Assembly (NCBI GenBank): GCA_020073115.1
Contig: JAIQFU010000002.1
Location: 1-42,804 of the forward strand
From: Terriglobia bacterium
GTDB taxonomy: Bacteria; Acidobacteriota; Terriglobia; Bryobacterales; Bryobacteraceae
Direction: 5' to 3'
DNA: 42,804 nucleotides
Shown: piece after piece, positions 2,298 through 40,549 of the stretch
Numbering within the stretch: position 1 is the first letter of the stretch
Layout of the letters: each line of letters begins with the position of its first letter
The notes under the pieces: generated by a model
Told to the model about the DNA's origin: nothing
Database searches by the model: none
Seen by the model: only the letters and a program-made list of their open reading frames with translations
Position numbers and translations under genes: made by a program

Positions 2298-2341
2298 GTG
2301 GCGTGGACATTCCTGCCTGCCGTGTCGGCAGTCATGCCGAC
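2298..2341 (+). repeat. Dispersed repeat, copy 1, with hairpin
   Basis: The 33-base core 2298-2330 matches 37526-37558 at 30 of 33 positions. It ends in a hairpin: GTCGGCA (2324-2330), loop GTCA, TGCCGAC (2335-2341). The second copy has an equivalent stem with a changed but still paired base. It lies just after the hydrolase stop and ahead of the response-regulator gene, which has no good Shine-Dalgarno. Confidence 0.65.
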
Positions 2342-2391: not shown

Positions 2392-3135
2392 ATGGACGAA
2401 CGCAAGCTGCGCGCCGTAATCGTCGACGACGAGGAACTCGCGCGCGCCTATCTCCACGAACTCCTGGACGCGCATCCGGAAATCGAAATTGCGGCCGAAT
2501 GCGCCAACGGCTTCGAGGCCGTGAAGGCCATCGCGGATTCGACCCCCGATCTGCTTTTCCTCGATGTCCAGATGCCCAAGCTCGACGGCTTCGAGGTGCT
2601 GGAGTTAATCGACCCTGGTCCCGCCATCGTCTTCGTTACCGCCTACGACCAGTACGCCATCCGCGCTTTCGACGCGCACGCGGCCGACTACCTGCTGAAG
2701 CCTTTCGGGGCCGACCGCTTTGAGCGGGCGCTGGAGCGCGCCAAGGCGCGGTTGGGCCAGCGGCAGGCGCCCGCCGAATTGGCCGCGGTCCGCCCGCCCG
2801 AGCAGCGGCCGGAGCGTCTCGTCGTCAAGGACGGGACCCGCGTGCACGTGATTCCGCTCGACAAGCTGGACTACGTGGAAGCGCAGGACGATTACGTGGC
2901 GCTGGCCAGCGGCGGCAAGAAGTACCTCAAGCAGCAGCCCATCGGGAGCCTGGAAGCGATTCTCGACCCGGCGCGCTTCGTGCGCATCCACCGCTCCGCC
3001 ATCGTGAACCTCGACCGCGTGGCGCGGATCGAGCCCTACGGCAAAGACAGCCGCCTGGCGATCCTGTCGGATGGCGCGCGCCTCCCCGTCAGCCGCTCCG
3101 GTTACGCCCGGCTGTTGGAAGTCATGAACAAGTGA
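2392..3135 (+). CDS. LytTR-family response regulator
   Basis: 247-aa two-component response regulator of the LytR/AlgR type. The receiver domain (about 6-120) shows the acidic pocket VDDEE (11-15), the phospho-acceptor Asp58 in LFLDVQMP, and the conserved Lys in DYLLKPF. After a short linker, residues about 140-245 form a LytTR DNA-binding domain (VHVIPLDKLDYVEAQDDYV, then RFVRIHRSAIVNL). I start at ATG 2392 because the receiver begins there. An upstream in-frame GTG at 2356 would add unrelated residues from the repeat-flanking DNA. It faces the LytS-type kinase at 3179-4177 tail to tail and is its likely partner, although pairs of this kind are normally co-directional. Confidence 0.9.
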   Translation: MDERKLRAVIVDDEELARAYLHELLDAHPEIEIAAECANGFEAVKAIADSTPDLLFLDVQMPKLDGFEVLELIDPGPAIVFVTAYDQYAIRAFDAHAADYLLKPFGADRFERALERAKARLGQRQAPAELAAVRPPEQRPERLVVKDGTRVHVIPLDKLDYVEAQDDYVALASGGKKYLKQQPIGSLEAILDPARFVRIHRSAIVNLDRVARIEPYGKDSRLAILSDGARLPVSRSGYARLLEVMNK

Positions 3136-7497: not shown

Positions 7498-8922
7498 TTG
7501 ACAAAGCACTTGTTGGAACATCCGGTCAACCGGCGCTCGTTCATGAGATTCGTCGGCGTTCTGGGAGCGGGCTATTCGGCCGGAACATCTCCCAAGGCAG
7601 CCCAAAGCGACGCCGGCGCGCGGCCACGCATCAGCCCCTGCCTGGTGGGCAACAACGTCTGGTTGAACCCTAGCGATGCGATTTGGGATGTTGCTTCCAA
7701 AGCCGGCTTGCAGCTTCTGCGGATCGGCGGCATCAGCTATGACCGCAAAATGCCGCCCAGTGAACAGCTCATGGATTGGCTCCGGCGCATCAAGGCGATG
7801 GGAGCAGAGCCGATGATCCAGGTTTCGCAGTTCCGGCCGGCCCAGGAAGCCGCCGATCTGGTTCGGTACTTCAATATCGAGAAGAAATTGCCCGTCCGTT
7901 TCTGGAATATCGGAAATGAGCCATGGCTGGAGCGCAAGAAGCCCCCCGTCGCGACAGTGGCCCCCGAGGTAGCGGCTTACGTCAAGCCGATTGCCTCGGC
8001 CATGAAGGCGGTGGATCCGGCGATCAAGATCTACATACCGGATGAATGCGACTATCTCGACGAGCTCTACGAAGCGCTAATCGGAGGCTCGAACGACGTG
8101 TGCGGGAAGGATGAGAACAACCGGTACTACGTCGATGGCATTTCCTGGCACCGGTACGTGAGCGGCAACCGCCGATGGGTGGCGGCCAATGCGGCCCAAC
8201 AGTTCCGGGTCCGCGCAGCCAAGTGCAAGAGCCTGATCGACCGCGCCAATGCGGCGCACGGACGCAGAGGCGCCGACGCGCTTAGCTGGGGCATCGGCGA
8301 GTTCAACCTGGAGAACAGAGGCTACGAGGGACCCAGCGCCATCGAGGGCTCGGGCGTTCACTCTTTTGTGAACGGCCAATTCCACGCGGAAGTCCTGGGC
8401 ATCTGCATGAAGTACGCCGCCAGCTATTGCGCCACTTGGGACATCTTCGAAAGAAACGGCGATCGGCAGGGGACTGATTACAGTTTTATCGATGGCCAAG
8501 GTCTCACGCCTCGGCCCAGCTATCGGCATTTGGAACTGGTGGCGAAGAATTTCCGCGGCGAATACCTGGATGGCGTCACGAATCTGCCCGACATTCGCGC
8601 ATTCGGCTGTAAACGCAGTGATGGGTTTTGCGCCATGATCCTCAATTTGGAGGATGCCGGGACACGATCATACACCCTACGGTTCGATGACGGGAAAATC
8701 GAGGGCGCATGTGCGATCAACCTCGATGGCGGGCTCATGGCTCAATACAAAGACGCGATTGCGAATCAGACCACGCAATTGCTCGTTTTCTCAGGGAATG
8801 GCATGCTTGCCCGCAAGTACACCTACGGCCTGGATCAGGCCAAGGCCGGAGAGCCGCCTAAGCTGGAGGAGTTCACGAAGAAAGTTGGACGAAGCGCCGC
8901 TGCAGGCAAATCGAAGGAGTAA
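7498..8922 (+). CDS. Tat-exported clan GH-A glycoside hydrolase, copy 1
   Basis: 474 aa, TTG start with AAGGAG about ten bases upstream. The N-terminus carries a twin-arginine signal (NRRSFMRFVGVLGAG, 11-25). The TIM-barrel core has GIGN-type and acid/base motif NIGNEPW (Glu141), the barrel strand motif DGISWHRY (213-220) and likely nucleophile Glu268 in WGIGEFNLENR, giving the retaining two-glutamate layout of GH-A families such as GH44, GH51 or GH39. A C-terminal beta domain follows (about 355-450), then a charged tail absent from the second copy. I cannot fix the family or substrate. The stop codon overlaps the start of its near twin (TAATG), so both are made from one message. Confidence 0.7.
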   Translation: MTKHLLEHPVNRRSFMRFVGVLGAGYSAGTSPKAAQSDAGARPRISPCLVGNNVWLNPSDAIWDVASKAGLQLLRIGGISYDRKMPPSEQLMDWLRRIKAMGAEPMIQVSQFRPAQEAADLVRYFNIEKKLPVRFWNIGNEPWLERKKPPVATVAPEVAAYVKPIASAMKAVDPAIKIYIPDECDYLDELYEALIGGSNDVCGKDENNRYYVDGISWHRYVSGNRRWVAANAAQQFRVRAAKCKSLIDRANAAHGRRGADALSWGIGEFNLENRGYEGPSAIEGSGVHSFVNGQFHAEVLGICMKYAASYCATWDIFERNGDRQGTDYSFIDGQGLTPRPSYRHLELVAKNFRGEYLDGVTNLPDIRAFGCKRSDGFCAMILNLEDAGTRSYTLRFDDGKIEGACAINLDGGLMAQYKDAIANQTTQLLVFSGNGMLARKYTYGLDQAKAGEPPKLEEFTKKVGRSAAAGKSKE

Positions 8923-10307
8923 TGACGTTGATGGGGCACTTGCTGGAACGTTTTGTAGACCGGCGCTCATTCATGAGGTCTGCCGCCCTCCTGGGAGCGA
9001 GTTCTTGGGATGTAACGCCTTCCGAGGGGGCCAACGCGCGTCCGCGCATCAGCCACTACCTGGTCGGCAACAACGTCTGGATGAATCCGAGCGATGCGGT
9101 CTGGAGTGTCGCTTCCAAGGCCGGCTTGCAGATCGTGCGGATCGGCGGCGGCGCCTACGACCGCAAGATGCCGCCCAATGATCAGCTCGTGGATTGGCTC
9201 CGGCGTATCAAGGCGATGGGAGCGGAGCCGATGGTCCAGGTTTCGCAATACGGGACGGCCCGGGAGGCAGCCGACTTGGTGCGATTCCTCAATGTCGAGA
9301 ACAAGTTCGCCGTCCGTTACTGGAACCTCGGCAACGAGCCATGGCTGCAGCGCAAGAAGCCCCCTATCGGGACGGTGGCGGCGGAAGTAGCGGCTTACGT
9401 CAAGCCGATTGCGTCGGCCATGAAGGCGGTGGACCCGTCGATCAAGATCTACATACCGGATGAGTGCGACTATTTCGATGAGCTGTATGAAAGCCTAATC
9501 GGCGGGCCAAGCGACGTGTGTGGCAAGGATGAAAACAACCGGCACTATGTCGATGGCATCTCCTGGCATCGGTATGTGAGCGGCGACCGCCGGTGGGTGG
9601 TGGCCAACGCGGCCCAACAGTTCCGCGTCCGCGCCGCCAAGTGCAGGAACCTGATCGACCGCGCCAACGCGGCGCACGGACGCGCAGGCGCCGGCGCGCT
9701 GGGTTGGGGGATTGGCGAATACAACCTGGAGAACAGAGGCTTTGAGGGACCCAGCACTACCGAGGGCGCGGGTGTTCACTCGTTTGTCAACGGGCAATTC
9801 CAGGCGGAGGTCCTCGGCATCTGTATGAAGTACGGCGCCACGTATTGCAGCCCGTGGTCCACCTTCGAGAACGGGGGCCGCCGCCAGGGGACGGATTACA
9901 GTTTTATCGATGGCCAAGGGCTCACCCCTCGGCCAAGCTACCGGCACATGGAACTCGTGGCGAAGAATTTCCGCGGCGAGTATCTGGACGGCGCCACGAA
10001 TCTGCCCGACATTCGCGCCTTCGGCTGCAAGCGCGATGACGGGCTTTGCGCCATGATCCTCAATATGGAGGATACCGGGACCCGATCCTACACGCTCCGG
10101 TTCGATGCTGGGAAGATCGAAGGCGCGTGTGCGATCAACCTGGATGGCGGGCTCAGGATTCAACACAAAGACGATATTTCGAATCAGACCACGCAATTGC
10201 TCGTTTTCTCAGGGAATGGCACGCTTGCCCGGAAGTACACCTACGGAGTGGATCAGGCCAAGGCCGGAGAGCCGCCTAAGCTGGAGGAGTTCAAGAAGAA
10301 ACGCTGA
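8922..10307 (+). CDS. Tat-exported clan GH-A glycoside hydrolase, copy 2
   Basis: 461 aa and very similar along its length to the preceding protein, so the pair arose by tandem duplication. ATG 8922 shares its A with the upstream TAA, and AAGGAG at 8914-8919 lies inside the end of the first gene. It keeps the twin-arginine signal (DRRSFMRS), NLGNEPW (Glu139) and GIGEYNLENR (Glu266). Differences cluster in the signal region, around the substrate-side loop after the fifth strand (CSPWSTFENGGRRQG against CATWDIFERNGDRQG) and at the C-terminus. Such changes could alter specificity while the catalytic frame is kept; this is inference. Confidence 0.7.
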   Translation: MTLMGHLLERFVDRRSFMRSAALLGASSWDVTPSEGANARPRISHYLVGNNVWMNPSDAVWSVASKAGLQIVRIGGGAYDRKMPPNDQLVDWLRRIKAMGAEPMVQVSQYGTAREAADLVRFLNVENKFAVRYWNLGNEPWLQRKKPPIGTVAAEVAAYVKPIASAMKAVDPSIKIYIPDECDYFDELYESLIGGPSDVCGKDENNRHYVDGISWHRYVSGDRRWVVANAAQQFRVRAAKCRNLIDRANAAHGRAGAGALGWGIGEYNLENRGFEGPSTTEGAGVHSFVNGQFQAEVLGICMKYGATYCSPWSTFENGGRRQGTDYSFIDGQGLTPRPSYRHMELVAKNFRGEYLDGATNLPDIRAFGCKRDDGLCAMILNMEDTGTRSYTLRFDAGKIEGACAINLDGGLRIQHKDDISNQTTQLLVFSGNGTLARKYTYGVDQAKAGEPPKLEEFKKKR

Positions 10308-35915: not shown

Positions 35916-37520
35916 CTATCGTTCTTTCAGAATTCCCCGCTGCTTCTCCCCGATCGCCGCCCAGTCGAAATTCCTGACCGCGTGCCAGTAGGCCGCGTCC
36001 GCGATCTGCGCCCGCCGCTCCGCATCGCCCATCAGGGTGGCGATTCCCGCCGCGAAGGCTTCGGGCGCGTCGGCCACCCACACGCTGTGGCCGTGCAGCA
36101 GGCCCAGGCCGGCGCATCCCGAAGTGGTGGATACCACCGCGCGCCGCATCGCCATGGCTTCCAGGACCTTCAGGTTCGTGCCGGCCGAAACGGTAGTCGG
36201 GACAATCGCCAGGTTCGCCTCCACATACAGGGGCCGCACGTCGGCGACGAATCCCAGCAGGCGGATGCGTCCGTCCGCCGCCGGCTCGGGGGAATCGGTG
36301 AATGCGCGCCAGTGCGTCAGGTGGTCGGCCCCGCACACCACCGTAAGGGTCATATCGGGGAACAGGTCCCGCAGCAGCGGCCACACCTTACCCGTAAAGA
36401 ACCGGTACGCCGCCACGTTCGGAAAATGCTGGAAGGAACCGATGAACAGCAGGCGCCGGCCCGGCTGCTCCGGTTCGGCGTGAAAGCGCGCCAGGTCCAC
36501 GCCGTTTTCGATCACCGCCGTGGGGACAGCCGGCCCCAGCAGTTCCGCGTCTTTCTTGGACATCACCACGACCCGGCGAAAGCGGCGTGCGTGGCGCATT
36601 TCGAAGCGGCGCCAGCGGAAGTAGTTCCACCAGGCGGCGAGGGTCCGTTCCCGGCGCGCGATCTGGCCGAAGAGGTCGAAGGTGACGTCGTGTTCCACCA
36701 GGAAATCGCCCCCGTACTCCGCCAGTTGCGTGTACTCCACCTGTAACGTCTCGAAACCGAAGGCGCGGCGCTCCTCCACGAGCGCCTGCCGCATGGCCGG
36801 CGAGCGGAACTCGTGGACCTCGGGCGGCAGCAGCGTGGACCAGCGCGGCTCGCGGTAGCGCGGCTTCTCCACCAGGACCAGGCGCGCGCAGAATTCGAGT
36901 GGCGCGGGTTCCACGCCCGCCCGGTCCTGGAAAGCGAACAACTCCACGTCGAACTCGCGCGCCATCTCGCGCAGCAAATGGAAGATTCTCACCGCGCCGC
37001 CGTGCGAGAGCGGGTACGGGAAATAGGGCGAGAGCACGGCGACACGCCTTCGCTCCGGCGAGCAGGGTCTCCCTTCCAGAATCCGCCAGCCCTGGGGAAC
37101 CACCGAGCGGTCGCGCTTCGGCCATGGCCACCACCAGGGACGCAGGTAGATGCGGTCGAGTGGAACGCCGAGCCAGAACAGCAGTGAGGCCAGGTTGAGC
37201 CGCAGGTGGCGCCGCTCCAGCCGCGAGTTGTAGGCCAGGATCCTGCGCGGCGCCATGCGGTAAGCGGCCCGCCGGAGCGCCTTCGCCTCGCGGGTCAGCA
37301 TCACCGGCGCGAGCCCGATCCGGTAACGTTTCAGTTCGCGCCGCAAACTGCTCCAGTTCTCCGCCGTGGCGACGAAGTGGCGCCGGTCCGGAACGAGGCC
37401 GCGCACTTCCTCCGCCATCCGCCGGCACAACTCCTCGGGCCCCGTGCAGAACGTGACCACGACAGCCTCGGGATCCTTCCCGAGCAGGCGAAACACCCAC
37501 CTCTTGAGCCATTGCTTCAT
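35916..37520 (-). CDS. Glycosyltransferase, GT4-like
   Basis: 534 aa. I start at Met 37520 (KQWLKRWVFRLLG); upstream in-frame Mets at 37559 and 37580 translate the dispersed repeat and are rejected. No Shine-Dalgarno is clear. The first 150 residues are unfamiliar; from about 160 the protein shows a two-domain GT-B fold: VAVLSPYFPYPLSHGGAVRIFHLL (N-domain with donor-site loop), VVVMSKKDAEL, VIENGVDLARF, RRLLFIGSFQHFPN (C-domain start), RIRLLGFVADVRPLY and the donor-binding SAGTNLKVLEAMAMRRAVVST. It resembles PEP-CTERM/exosortase-type sugar transferases. Likely adds sugars to envelope polymers; donor and acceptor unknown. Confidence 0.8.
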   Translation of the reverse strand: MKQWLKRWVFRLLGKDPEAVVVTFCTGPEELCRRMAEEVRGLVPDRRHFVATAENWSSLRRELKRYRIGLAPVMLTREAKALRRAAYRMAPRRILAYNSRLERRHLRLNLASLLFWLGVPLDRIYLRPWWWPWPKRDRSVVPQGWRILEGRPCSPERRRVAVLSPYFPYPLSHGGAVRIFHLLREMAREFDVELFAFQDRAGVEPAPLEFCARLVLVEKPRYREPRWSTLLPPEVHEFRSPAMRQALVEERRAFGFETLQVEYTQLAEYGGDFLVEHDVTFDLFGQIARRERTLAAWWNYFRWRRFEMRHARRFRRVVVMSKKDAELLGPAVPTAVIENGVDLARFHAEPEQPGRRLLFIGSFQHFPNVAAYRFFTGKVWPLLRDLFPDMTLTVVCGADHLTHWRAFTDSPEPAADGRIRLLGFVADVRPLYVEANLAIVPTTVSAGTNLKVLEAMAMRRAVVSTTSGCAGLGLLHGHSVWVADAPEAFAAGIATLMGDAERRAQIADAAYWHAVRNFDWAAIGEKQRGILKER

Positions 37521-37525
37521 GAGTT

Positions 37526-37576
37526 GTGGCGTGGGCATTCCTGCCCGCCGTGCCGGCATCCGGCCCGAATGCCGGC
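37526..37576 (+). repeat. Dispersed repeat, copy 2, with hairpin
   Basis: Core 37526-37558 matches copy 1 at 2298-2330 (30 of 33 bases). Its hairpin has an 8-bp stem, GCCGGCAT (37552-37559) with ATGCCGGC (37569-37576), around a 9-base loop. It lies in the 64-base gap between the glycosyltransferase start and the transporter stop and creates a false N-terminal extension of the former. Confidence 0.65.
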
Positions 37577-37584
37577 GCAACGGA

Positions 37585-38775
37585 TCACCGCGCCGATCCC
37601 CACAACAACGCGCACGCCGCCAGCGGCATGAGGGCGGTGAACGTGGTCACCGGGGCATACCCATAGAGATCGATCATCCGGCCGAAAACCGGCGAGATCA
37701 CCGCCTGCGCCGCGCCATACGACGAAACCAGGATCGATACGGCGAAGGCCGCGCGCGCGCCGCCAAAGACGTCGAGCGGGAGCGAGTACATGTTCACGCT
37801 GAACGCCGAGACCGCCAGGATGCTCAGCGAGATTCCGGCGGCGGCCCATCCGGCGGAAGGCGCCGCGGGAATCGCGATCCCGCCCAGCGACAGCGCCGCG
37901 GCCAGGAGGCAAACGCGGAAGCGCGCCGGCGGCGCGGCCATGCCGCGCTCCACCAGCCGCAGGGAAAGCCAGCCCCCGGCGAAGCCGCCGGCCAGGGCGG
38001 CCAGCGGCGGAATCCACGCGTACCACGCCGCCTGGACTAACGTGAGGTGGTGCGTTTCCACCAGGTACAGCGTGGTCCAGTTCGTCCACAGCGAGTAGCC
38101 GATCATGCTCAGCGCATTGGCCCCGACGAAGGCCCACAGGCGTGAATCGCACAGCATCTCCGAACCGGCGCCGGCCGCGATCTTCGGAGCGGGCGCGGCG
38201 CGCACCCCGCGGGCGGCGAGGTTCCACACCGGAATCCACAGCAGTCCCAGAACGCCGGTGACGAGGAAGGCATGCCGCCACCCGCTGCGAATCGCGATCC
38301 AGGTGGCGATGGGCGGCGCCAGCATCAGCCCCAGGCTCACCCCCGCCTGGTTGACCGCGTTCCCCAGGGCACGCTCCGAGGGCCGCAGGTATTGGTGGAT
38401 GGCCTTGCCCGCGCCTGGGATCCCGCCCGCCTCCGCGACCCCCAACGCCGCGCGGCACCCCACCAGGCCGCCCAACCCGCGGGTGAGGCCGGTGGCGATT
38501 CCCGCGCAGGACCACAGCCCTACCGCCAGGCTGATCCCCCGGTTCAGACCGATGCGGTCGATGAGCATCCCTGCCAGCGGCGCGCTGGCGGCGTACGTGA
38601 GGGAGAAAGCCGTCAGGATCAGCCCGTACTCCGCGTTGGAGAGGTGAAATTCGGCGCGCAACAGCGGGGCCAGCGTCGCCAGGGTTTGGCGGTCCAGGTA
38701 GTTGATGGCGGTGGACAACACGAAGACCGCCAGCACGAGCCAGCGAAAACGCGAGACCTCGGGAGCTTGCGTCAC
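37585..38775 (-). CDS. MFS transporter, sugar-acid/organophosphate type
   Basis: 396 aa with about twelve membrane helices. GTG start at 38775 overlaps the upstream stop (GTGA), which indicates translational coupling. Seen: FRWLVLAVFVLSTAINYLDR (helix 1 with the NYLDR motif common in the anion:cation symporter family), GLILTAFSLTYAASAPLAGMLIDRIGLNRG (loop 2-3 signature), GVAEAGGIPGAGKAIHQYLRPSERALG (helix 4 region) and SGWRHAFLVTGVLGLLW. Relatives carry hexuronates, glucarate or related acids. It may import products of the glycanase genes, but no direct link is visible. Confidence 0.85.
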   Translation of the reverse strand: MTQAPEVSRFRWLVLAVFVLSTAINYLDRQTLATLAPLLRAEFHLSNAEYGLILTAFSLTYAASAPLAGMLIDRIGLNRGISLAVGLWSCAGIATGLTRGLGGLVGCRAALGVAEAGGIPGAGKAIHQYLRPSERALGNAVNQAGVSLGLMLAPPIATWIAIRSGWRHAFLVTGVLGLLWIPVWNLAARGVRAAPAPKIAAGAGSEMLCDSRLWAFVGANALSMIGYSLWTNWTTLYLVETHHLTLVQAAWYAWIPPLAALAGGFAGGWLSLRLVERGMAAPPARFRVCLLAAALSLGGIAIPAAPSAGWAAAGISLSILAVSAFSVNMYSLPLDVFGGARAAFAVSILVSSYGAAQAVISPVFGRMIDLYGYAPVTTFTALMPLAACALLWGSAR

Positions 38776-40436
38776 TGAAACTCGATTGTAGCTACTTCGC
38801 CGGCCGTCCCCAGGCGCGCATTGGTCTTGGGGAAGTATTCCACACGGACGCGCCGCGCCTTCTGCGCGCCGCACCCGAGGGCCAGGTCGCCGGCGCCGTT
38901 GATGGCCACTTTGGAGGGGTCCGCCACCAGCAGCCGCACGGTCTTGCGGTCGTCGGTCTCGATCACCAGGCGCGCCTGTTTGCCGATGCAATCCACCTGT
39001 TTGAGGGCGCCGCGCGCGTGGCCCGAGGGCTGGGGTCCGTCCCACCAGGGTACGGGCTTCTGGTCGGTCTTGGGCGCCGGATCGTTGTACTTGGATTCGA
39101 GCGCGTGCACCTCGGCGCGCGCCTCCGCTTTGAGCCGCTCCAGTTCGCGCGCGTCCTCCTCGGCCTGGCGCTTCTTCTCGGCCGCCTGGTAGTCGAGCCT
39201 CTGCCGTTCGATGGCCTGGCGGGCCTCGCGCATGCGCTGGCGCTCGGCGGGCTCCGTGGCGGCCTGCTCGCCCGCGGTCCATGCCTTGGCCGCGTCTCCG
39301 TAGTTGTGGTCGGCCAGGTAGCACTCGGCCAGGTTCTTCCAGTACTCCGCGTTCCGCGGATTGCGTTCCGCCGCGGCTTTCCAGTGCGCCAGCCGGGCGC
39401 GCGGGTCGGTGTCGCGCTGCGCCAGCAGGGCGAACGGCTCGTCCAGTTTGGGGTTGATGCCCGCGGCTTTGAGGAGCGCCTTCTCGGCCTTTTCGTTGTC
39501 CGGTTCCAGCCGGGCGTACTCGATGTAGCAGCGGGGGCTGGCGCTGCCGGCGTTCATCGCCGCGGTGAAGCGTTGCAGGGCTTCGTCTTTCCGGCCCCCC
39601 CGAAGCGCCAGGAGGCCCAGGCCTTCCTCGGCCTCCGCGGTTTTGAGCTTGCCGCGGAGCAGCGCCTGGTACTCGCCGGCGGACGCCTCGCCCGCCAGCA
39701 GGTCCGCCCGCGCCAGCCGCGCATCGGCGTCGGAAACCGGCCTCTCCTCGAAATCCGCCGCGGCGAGCGGCCGGCTGGAAAGAGAGGTCGTCTGGAAGTT
39801 CCCCGCCGCGAGGTGGGCTTTGGCCTGCGCTTCGACCTGCGCCGGCGTCTTCCCGAAGGCGTTGCCGTACGCAACGTCGTCCGGCGCCCCGTTCCGCAGG
39901 TTGTAGAGCAGGACGCGTAGCTTGCCGTAGTAGTCCGGATCCACGATTAGCAGGTGGACCCGAGCCCAGTCGAGATCCGTTTTCGGCGGAGGCGCGCCCG
40001 CCGTGATGTGGATGCCGCTCACTGCGAACGTCGAAAAGAACTCCATCAGGCCGTGCTCGAAGGCCCCCGGCATGCGTCCCGTGTTCGCGTCGAGGAGCAG
40101 GCGCGTCAGGGCGCGGTAGACATCCGGCGAGACGTCGGCCTTTTCCGCGAGTACGATGTCGTACCGGTCGCGCCCTTCCACCAGCGGCGCCGGCTGCGCC
40201 CAGCCTTTCGTGTTCTTGAACACCATGATCCGGATGGGCTGCGGCGCGGTCATGTCCTGTACGCCGGTGACGGACCCGACGGCATGCCGGAACTCCTCGA
40301 AGCGCAGCAGCGTTTCCCGGCCGGGACGCGAGCCGGCGTCGGTGAACACCTCGAACGGTCCGGAAGCGAACTTGATCCAGTGGTCGTCGGCGGATAGCAG
40401 AGAGGCGAACAGACAGAGCAACAGCAGCCGCGGCAT
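38772..40436 (-). CDS. Exported TPR-repeat protein
   Basis: 554 aa with a signal peptide (PRLLLLCLFASLLSAD). The region from 20 to about 170 resembles the DUF1570-like, peptidase-fold N-terminus found before TPRs (FKNTKGWAQPAPLVEGRDRYDIVLAE), but no zinc site is clear. TPR-like pairs follow from about 240 (EGLGLLALRGGRKDEALQRFTAAMNAG, HWKAAAERNPRNAEYWKNLAECYL). Residues about 385-435 are a charged helix (RQAIERQRLDYQAAEKKRQA) of coiled-coil type, and the last 100 residues are a beta domain. It is translated together with the MFS transporter, suggesting a shared envelope role that I cannot specify. Confidence 0.7.
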   Translation of the reverse strand: MPRLLLLCLFASLLSADDHWIKFASGPFEVFTDAGSRPGRETLLRFEEFRHAVGSVTGVQDMTAPQPIRIMVFKNTKGWAQPAPLVEGRDRYDIVLAEKADVSPDVYRALTRLLLDANTGRMPGAFEHGLMEFFSTFAVSGIHITAGAPPPKTDLDWARVHLLIVDPDYYGKLRVLLYNLRNGAPDDVAYGNAFGKTPAQVEAQAKAHLAAGNFQTTSLSSRPLAAADFEERPVSDADARLARADLLAGEASAGEYQALLRGKLKTAEAEEGLGLLALRGGRKDEALQRFTAAMNAGSASPRCYIEYARLEPDNEKAEKALLKAAGINPKLDEPFALLAQRDTDPRARLAHWKAAAERNPRNAEYWKNLAECYLADHNYGDAAKAWTAGEQAATEPAERQRMREARQAIERQRLDYQAAEKKRQAEEDARELERLKAEARAEVHALESKYNDPAPKTDQKPVPWWDGPQPSGHARGALKQVDCIGKQARLVIETDDRKTVRLLVADPSKVAINGAGDLALGCGAQKARRVRVEYFPKTNARLGTAGEVATIEFQ

Positions 40437-40549
40437 GGCACATCCATTATCCCGCGTTGCCGGGGAGGGCGGCCCTCCGCGCCTGCCCGGCCCCTGCGAT
40501 TTCCAAAATCCGGTTCTCTGGAACGCTCCCCACGGCCGATAAGGGTAGT

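Follow-up and report, generated by a model that had tools for sequence, protein, structure and literature searches.

The window, which is the whole 42,804-nucleotide stretch of DNA that was analysed, belongs to a MAG (G000; 7.19 Mb, 683 contigs) of a Bryobacterales-like member of the Acidobacteriota. Two copies of a hairpin-bearing repeat are found in the window, one ahead of a response regulator gene (copy 1) and the other between a glycosyltransferase gene and an open frame with a transporter domain (copy 2). The genes and repeat elements at the two sites are as follows.

147–2291, + strand: gene upstream of copy 1, without a Pfam match; its stop codon lies 6 bases ahead of the REP
2298–2351, + strand: REP half-unit, copy 1, solo and complete at 54 nt (covariance-model match, 78.2 bits, E 5.3e-13, model positions 1–54)
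2305–2318, + strand: hairpin 1 of copy 1, GGACA/TTCC/TGCCT, its stem weakened by A2307 opposite C2316 (position from alignment R1, and sequence)
2323–2342, + strand: hairpin 2 of copy 1, 8 bp, TGTCGGCA/TGCCGACA, loop GTCA (sequence; DNA fold of the unit, z -3.0)
2392–3135, + strand: gene for a LytTR response regulator, on the downstream side of copy 1 (Pfam PF00072 and PF04397)
35916–37520, - strand: glycosyltransferase gene, its start adjoining copy 2 (Pfam PF13692; start MKQWLKRWVFRLLG agrees with relatives)
37521–37584, + strand: 64-nt spacer holding copy 2 (junction comparison with L218, L226, L227, L230 and L231)
37526–37567, + strand: REP half-unit, copy 2, lacking 12 nt of hairpin 2 through a deletion (covariance-model match, 55.5 bits, E 4.7e-8, model positions 1–54 over 42 nt)
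37533–37546, + strand: hairpin 1 of copy 2, GGGCA/TTCC/TGCCC (sequence)
37552–37576, + strand: secondary foldback of copy 2, GCCGGCAT/ATGCCGGC, loop 9 (sequence and fold; deletion from the covariance-model match)
37585–40443, - strand: open frame with a C-terminal MFS transporter domain (Pfam PF07690, residues 575–904); its stop codon (37587–37585) adjoins copy 2

The first 33 bases of copy 1 (2298–2330) and copy 2 (37526–37558) are identical at 30 of 33 positions, and the sequence contains both hairpins as the original prediction described them. Copy 1 is a solo unit, and copy 2 is a decayed one, in which the deletion, as placed by the covariance-model alignment (42 of 54 nt), removes the loop and the 3' arm of hairpin 2. 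The 3' arm of the copy 2 foldback (37569–37576) lies beyond the half-unit and has the look of an outer arm from a degenerate right half-unit. It probably originates from the outer arm of a right half that was lost, and its pairing would follow from REPIN symmetry. A T-A pair in copy 1 and a C-G pair in copy 2 had been taken as a compensatory change between the two copies. This comparison is invalid because copy 2 has lost 12 nt and folds with an arm that is not homologous to the 3' arm of copy 1.

Elsewhere in the window, positions 7612–7911 and 9030–9329 form a direct repeat of 300 nt with 83% identity, located in the adjacent open frames 7498–8922 and 8922–10307. This direct repeat is probably a tandem gene duplication.

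The repeat family and its hairpins

The covariance model was built on a 54-nt unit, GTGGCGTGGGCATTCCTGCCCGCCGTGTCGGCAnTCnTGCCGACATCCGGCCCC, that consists of a GTGG foot, two hairpins and a GC-rich tail. Hairpin 1 (5 bp) pairs columns 8–12 with columns 17–21, and hairpin 2 (8 bp) pairs columns 26–33 with columns 38–45 around a loop of 4 nt. GTGG starts nearly all copies; in the curated alignment (A1), columns 1 and 4 are invariant and column 3 is conserved at more than 90%. A pyrimidine directly precedes the foot in 80 of 85 copies.

The repeat is not confined to the two copies first noticed. A search of G000 with the 20-nt core, allowing up to 3 mismatches, yielded about 122 matches compared with 4 for a reversed-pattern control, and the covariance model yielded 148 matches at E ≤ 0.01. 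Within the window, the core matches twice, compared with 0.06 matches expected from shuffles. In the fetched sequence, 26 inverted pairs place GTGG outermost; intact pairs measure 97–106 bp, with a full size of about 102 bp. Another 69 units are unpaired in the set examined for inverted pairs. The head-outward inverted pairs are REPINs, and the remaining units are solo units or decayed pairs. The GTGG repeats constitute a previously uncatalogued family of approximately 150 copies.

The placement of the copies was assessed with a rough home-made gene finder, which overlooked the RAYT gene discussed below. By these gene calls, 81 of 103 copies lie between genes, although non-coding DNA makes up only about 12% of the sequence, and the median distance from a copy to the 3' end of a gene is 10 bp. 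The other 22 copies fall inside predicted genes, which counts against the reading preferred here, dispersal of REPs by a RAYT.

Both hairpins covary strongly, within G000 and across related genomes. For the covariation test, copies were picked by their first 20 nt only, since a choice based on the stems would introduce bias. In the 85 copies obtained in this manner, hairpin 2 exhibits 60 two-sided changes compared with 20.4 in shuffles (maximum of 32). Column pair 31-40 occurs as G-C, A-T and C-G, and pair 30-41 occurs as G-C and C-G. Alignment A1 contains 46 two-sided changes compared with 11.3 in shuffles. When the partner strand is slid by one base, pairing in this alignment drops from 94% of cells to 25–36%, and every slid register fails. 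Hairpin 1 covaries once more divergent copies enter, as in the change from GGGCA/TGCCC to GAACA/TGTTC. In related genomes, two-sided changes are observed at 11 of 13 pairs, a count to be read with caution, since the model itself supplied those copies. The general conclusion of the original prediction, that the fold is retained, stands on the two-sided changes that abound across the rest of the family, and further copies do pair in their stems, with covariation above both shuffles and slides.

The retained pairing could also be a product of mutation, for instance by template switching in the palindrome, or of a small number of differently palindromic founders, rather than of selection on the fold. 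Neighbouring pairs change jointly (TCGGCA/TGCCGA, TCCCCA/TGGGGA and TCGACA/TGTCGA), as expected from few founders or from hairpin-templated correction. The same architecture, however, recurs with other sequences beside the RAYTs of many genomes, and recognition of the folded REP by a RAYT is established in other systems (PMC8266576). We regard this origin of the pairing as rather unlikely; it is in any case a refinement that is compatible with the dispersal of REPs by a RAYT.

Operon junctions with and without a repeat copy

Three operon junctions that hold a copy in G000 are empty in related genomes. In the window, 64 nt separate the MFS stop codon from the glycosyltransferase start codon, and this spacer is copy 2. 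In five related genomes, one from the same genus and four from the same family (L218, L226, L227, L230 and L231), the MFS stop overlaps the next start by four bases (ATGA, GTGA or TTGA). The other two junctions are in the nuo (NADH dehydrogenase) operon, which carries two putative REP insertions (G000:C94:2659–4550, L069). The nuoD/nuoE gap is 87 nt long with a REPIN in G000, compared with 4–16 nt in six relatives; a seventh relative has a 56-nt gap that contains no REP. The nuoF/nuoG gap is 94 nt long with a REP in G000, and its length in seven relatives ranges from -4 to 19 nt. Because related genomes have the empty site at all three junctions, these copies are most simply read as insertions, and empty sites within conserved operons make the comparison unusually clean. 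At the copy 1 junction, close orthologues of the response regulator are found in G002, G003 and G023, and the upstream gene differs or aligns poorly.

The empty sites bear on a reading in which the repeat is a structured RNA or an RNA-level signal (a terminator, an attenuator or an mRNA stabiliser) kept at gene 3' ends for its function. Covarying stems and a median distance of 10 bp to the gene 3' end would suit such a signal. Copies located inside the nuo and MFS/glycosyltransferase operons where relatives have none lack positional conservation and are unlikely to be strong terminators. Moreover, a scan of both window copies for promoters and for intrinsic terminators (a GC hairpin followed by a T run) found none, the window has no Rfam match at the gathering score, and an RNA function leaves the bracketing of a RAYT gene by the same repeat unexplained. 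An RNA role as the reason for the family is thus very improbable; individual REP copies may still exert a secondary effect at the RNA level. Of the two identities originally offered for the repeat, REP/MITE-type DNA or structured RNA, the former holds in the form of REP/REPIN-type mobile DNA, and the latter is disfavoured.

The RAYT gene and the proposed mechanism

The RAYT whose presence in the genome had been suggested as a check is encoded on contig C70. Among ten Y1_Tnp-domain matches in G000, the gene at C70:1485–2018 encodes a RAYT of 178 residues and is flanked on both sides by the same repeat, 16 bp before the start and 2 bp after the stop, which identifies it as the cognate gene. The protein scores 91.3 bits against the NCBI RAYT model NF047646 (cut-off of 80) and also matches the Y1_Tnp domain. 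A further match is to structure 4er8, the E. coli TnpA_REP, with weak sequence similarity (E 1e-4). The HxH motif (residues 94 and 96) and the catalytic tyrosine Y153 are conserved among homologues.

Homologues of the C70 RAYT are present in 33 of the 61 genomes searched, and the nearest RAYTs among named genomes are mostly from Bryobacterales. The closest homologues (G033, G036 and G037) also lie between repeats that the model detects. Read by eye, an L122 flank (GTGGCGCACGC...GCGTGCCGCG...) follows the same plan, with a model score under the threshold. By a loose text criterion, an inverted repeat with a foot-like tetranucleotide surrounds the gene in 49 of 64 homologues examined. Most homologue flanks follow, by eye, the order of foot, hairpin, GC and hairpin with different stem sequences, and the repeat type therefore appears to change along with the RAYT lineage. 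To place the four RAYTs with model-scored REPs in one clade takes two label changes because L122 falls inside, on a tree that has one very long branch (L175). At the C70 locus (L118, 1426–2088), the REPs beside the gene point GTGG towards it, the reverse of the orientation in the closest relatives, and the locus may thus be rearranged; this, too, counts against the dispersal of REPs by the RAYT.

Other Y1/RAYT-like genes in G000 (C428, C240, C538 and C221; L034/L040, L036/L039, L035 and L037) have flanking inverted repeats of their own, which contain GGGACAG (C428 and C240) or GTACCGCCGGTGG (C538) or are of a GTAG-type double-hairpin form (C221). Immediately beyond the REP on the downstream side of the RAYT, two genomes have short tandem repeats, in L119 (CACTAACACTGG-like, after 2082) and L121 (CCCAGCACGA-like, after 2086).

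The nature of the bracketed gene bears on a further reading, a MITE of a classical DDE transposon with inverted repeats and a target-site duplication, which is very unlikely: REPINs are indeed short and dispersed with inverted ends, but the repeats enclose a gene for a Y1/HuH RAYT rather than for a DDE transposase, the unit has a GTGG foot and internal covarying hairpins like those of REPs, and solo half-units are common.

The repeats are best explained as GTGG-headed REPs, solo or arranged as REPINs, that are dispersed by the cognate RAYT/TnpA_REP at C70:1485–2018 (probability of about 0.94). This reading draws together the repeat family, its covarying hairpins, the bracketed gene, the match between RAYT clade and repeat type, and the insertions. 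Single-strand recognition, cutting and the route of spread are modelled on the studied TnpA_REP systems. By this analogy, the C70 RAYT would bind the single-stranded folded REP through the GTGG foot and hairpin, cut REP DNA with its HuH/Tyr centre and join REP copies at other places. The copies lie mostly between genes and just 3' of stop codons, where little harm is expected.

The two hairpins of each half-unit may together form one bipartite recognition site, a GTRG foot followed by two successive hairpins, that is read by this acidobacterial RAYT clade; we propose this only tentatively. Such a site would set these repeats apart as a separate class of REP, cut in a geometry of its own, in which the plan is conserved and the hairpin sequences change from one RAYT to the next. 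The large natural set of covarying hairpins is useful for learning how RAYTs read their REPs.

Comparison with known REP/RAYT systems

REPs and REPINs with a cognate RAYT are a known kind of selfish DNA. There are good published descriptions of GTGG-footed REPs, of their doublets and of RAYTs flanked by REPs (PMC2817692, PMC3686654), and GTGG is common among P. fluorescens REPs (PMC2817692, PMC3686654, PMC3116915). The Pseudomonas and Stenotrophomonas REP/REPIN systems with their RAYTs (PMC2817692, PMC3686654, PMC3116915) share with the present family a GT(A/G)G head, a hairpin, inverted doublets, a high copy number, a RAYT flanked by inverted REPs and a joint change of RAYT and REP type. They differ in host, which is an acidobacterium here, and in the half-unit, which contains a single hairpin in about 22–26 nt in those systems and two hairpins in a row in 54 nt here. 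E. coli REP/BIME elements with TnpA_REP (4er8; PMC8266576) are also similar, with a HuH/Tyr protein, a REP foot and palindrome, and BIME pairs. The E. coli REP, however, has a GTAG foot and a single bulged hairpin (PMC8266576), and its protein is only weakly similar in sequence to the C70 RAYT.

The two-hairpin half-unit is notable, yet precedented. A 2013 study, whose set covers Acidobacteria among others, noted doubly palindromic repeats next to RAYT-like genes (PMC3733652). These TIRYT/TIRtron elements resemble the present family in their RAYT-like genes, some of them acidobacterial, and in their inverted, sometimes doubly palindromic flanks, which can be repeated genome-wide. Their TIRs were separated from GTAG REPs (PMC3733652), whereas the family described here has a GTGG foot and a cognate gene that passes the RAYT model. 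The class 3 TnpA_Y1 of Solibacter usitatus Ellin6076, with about 600 repeats (PMC6006769), is comparable in its related host group, HuH Y1 gene and abundant structured repeats, but has a CnGA foot and a Y----Q motif in contrast to the GTGG foot and YIE-NPV motif observed here. The present family extends well-tested REP/RAYT biology to Bryobacterales.
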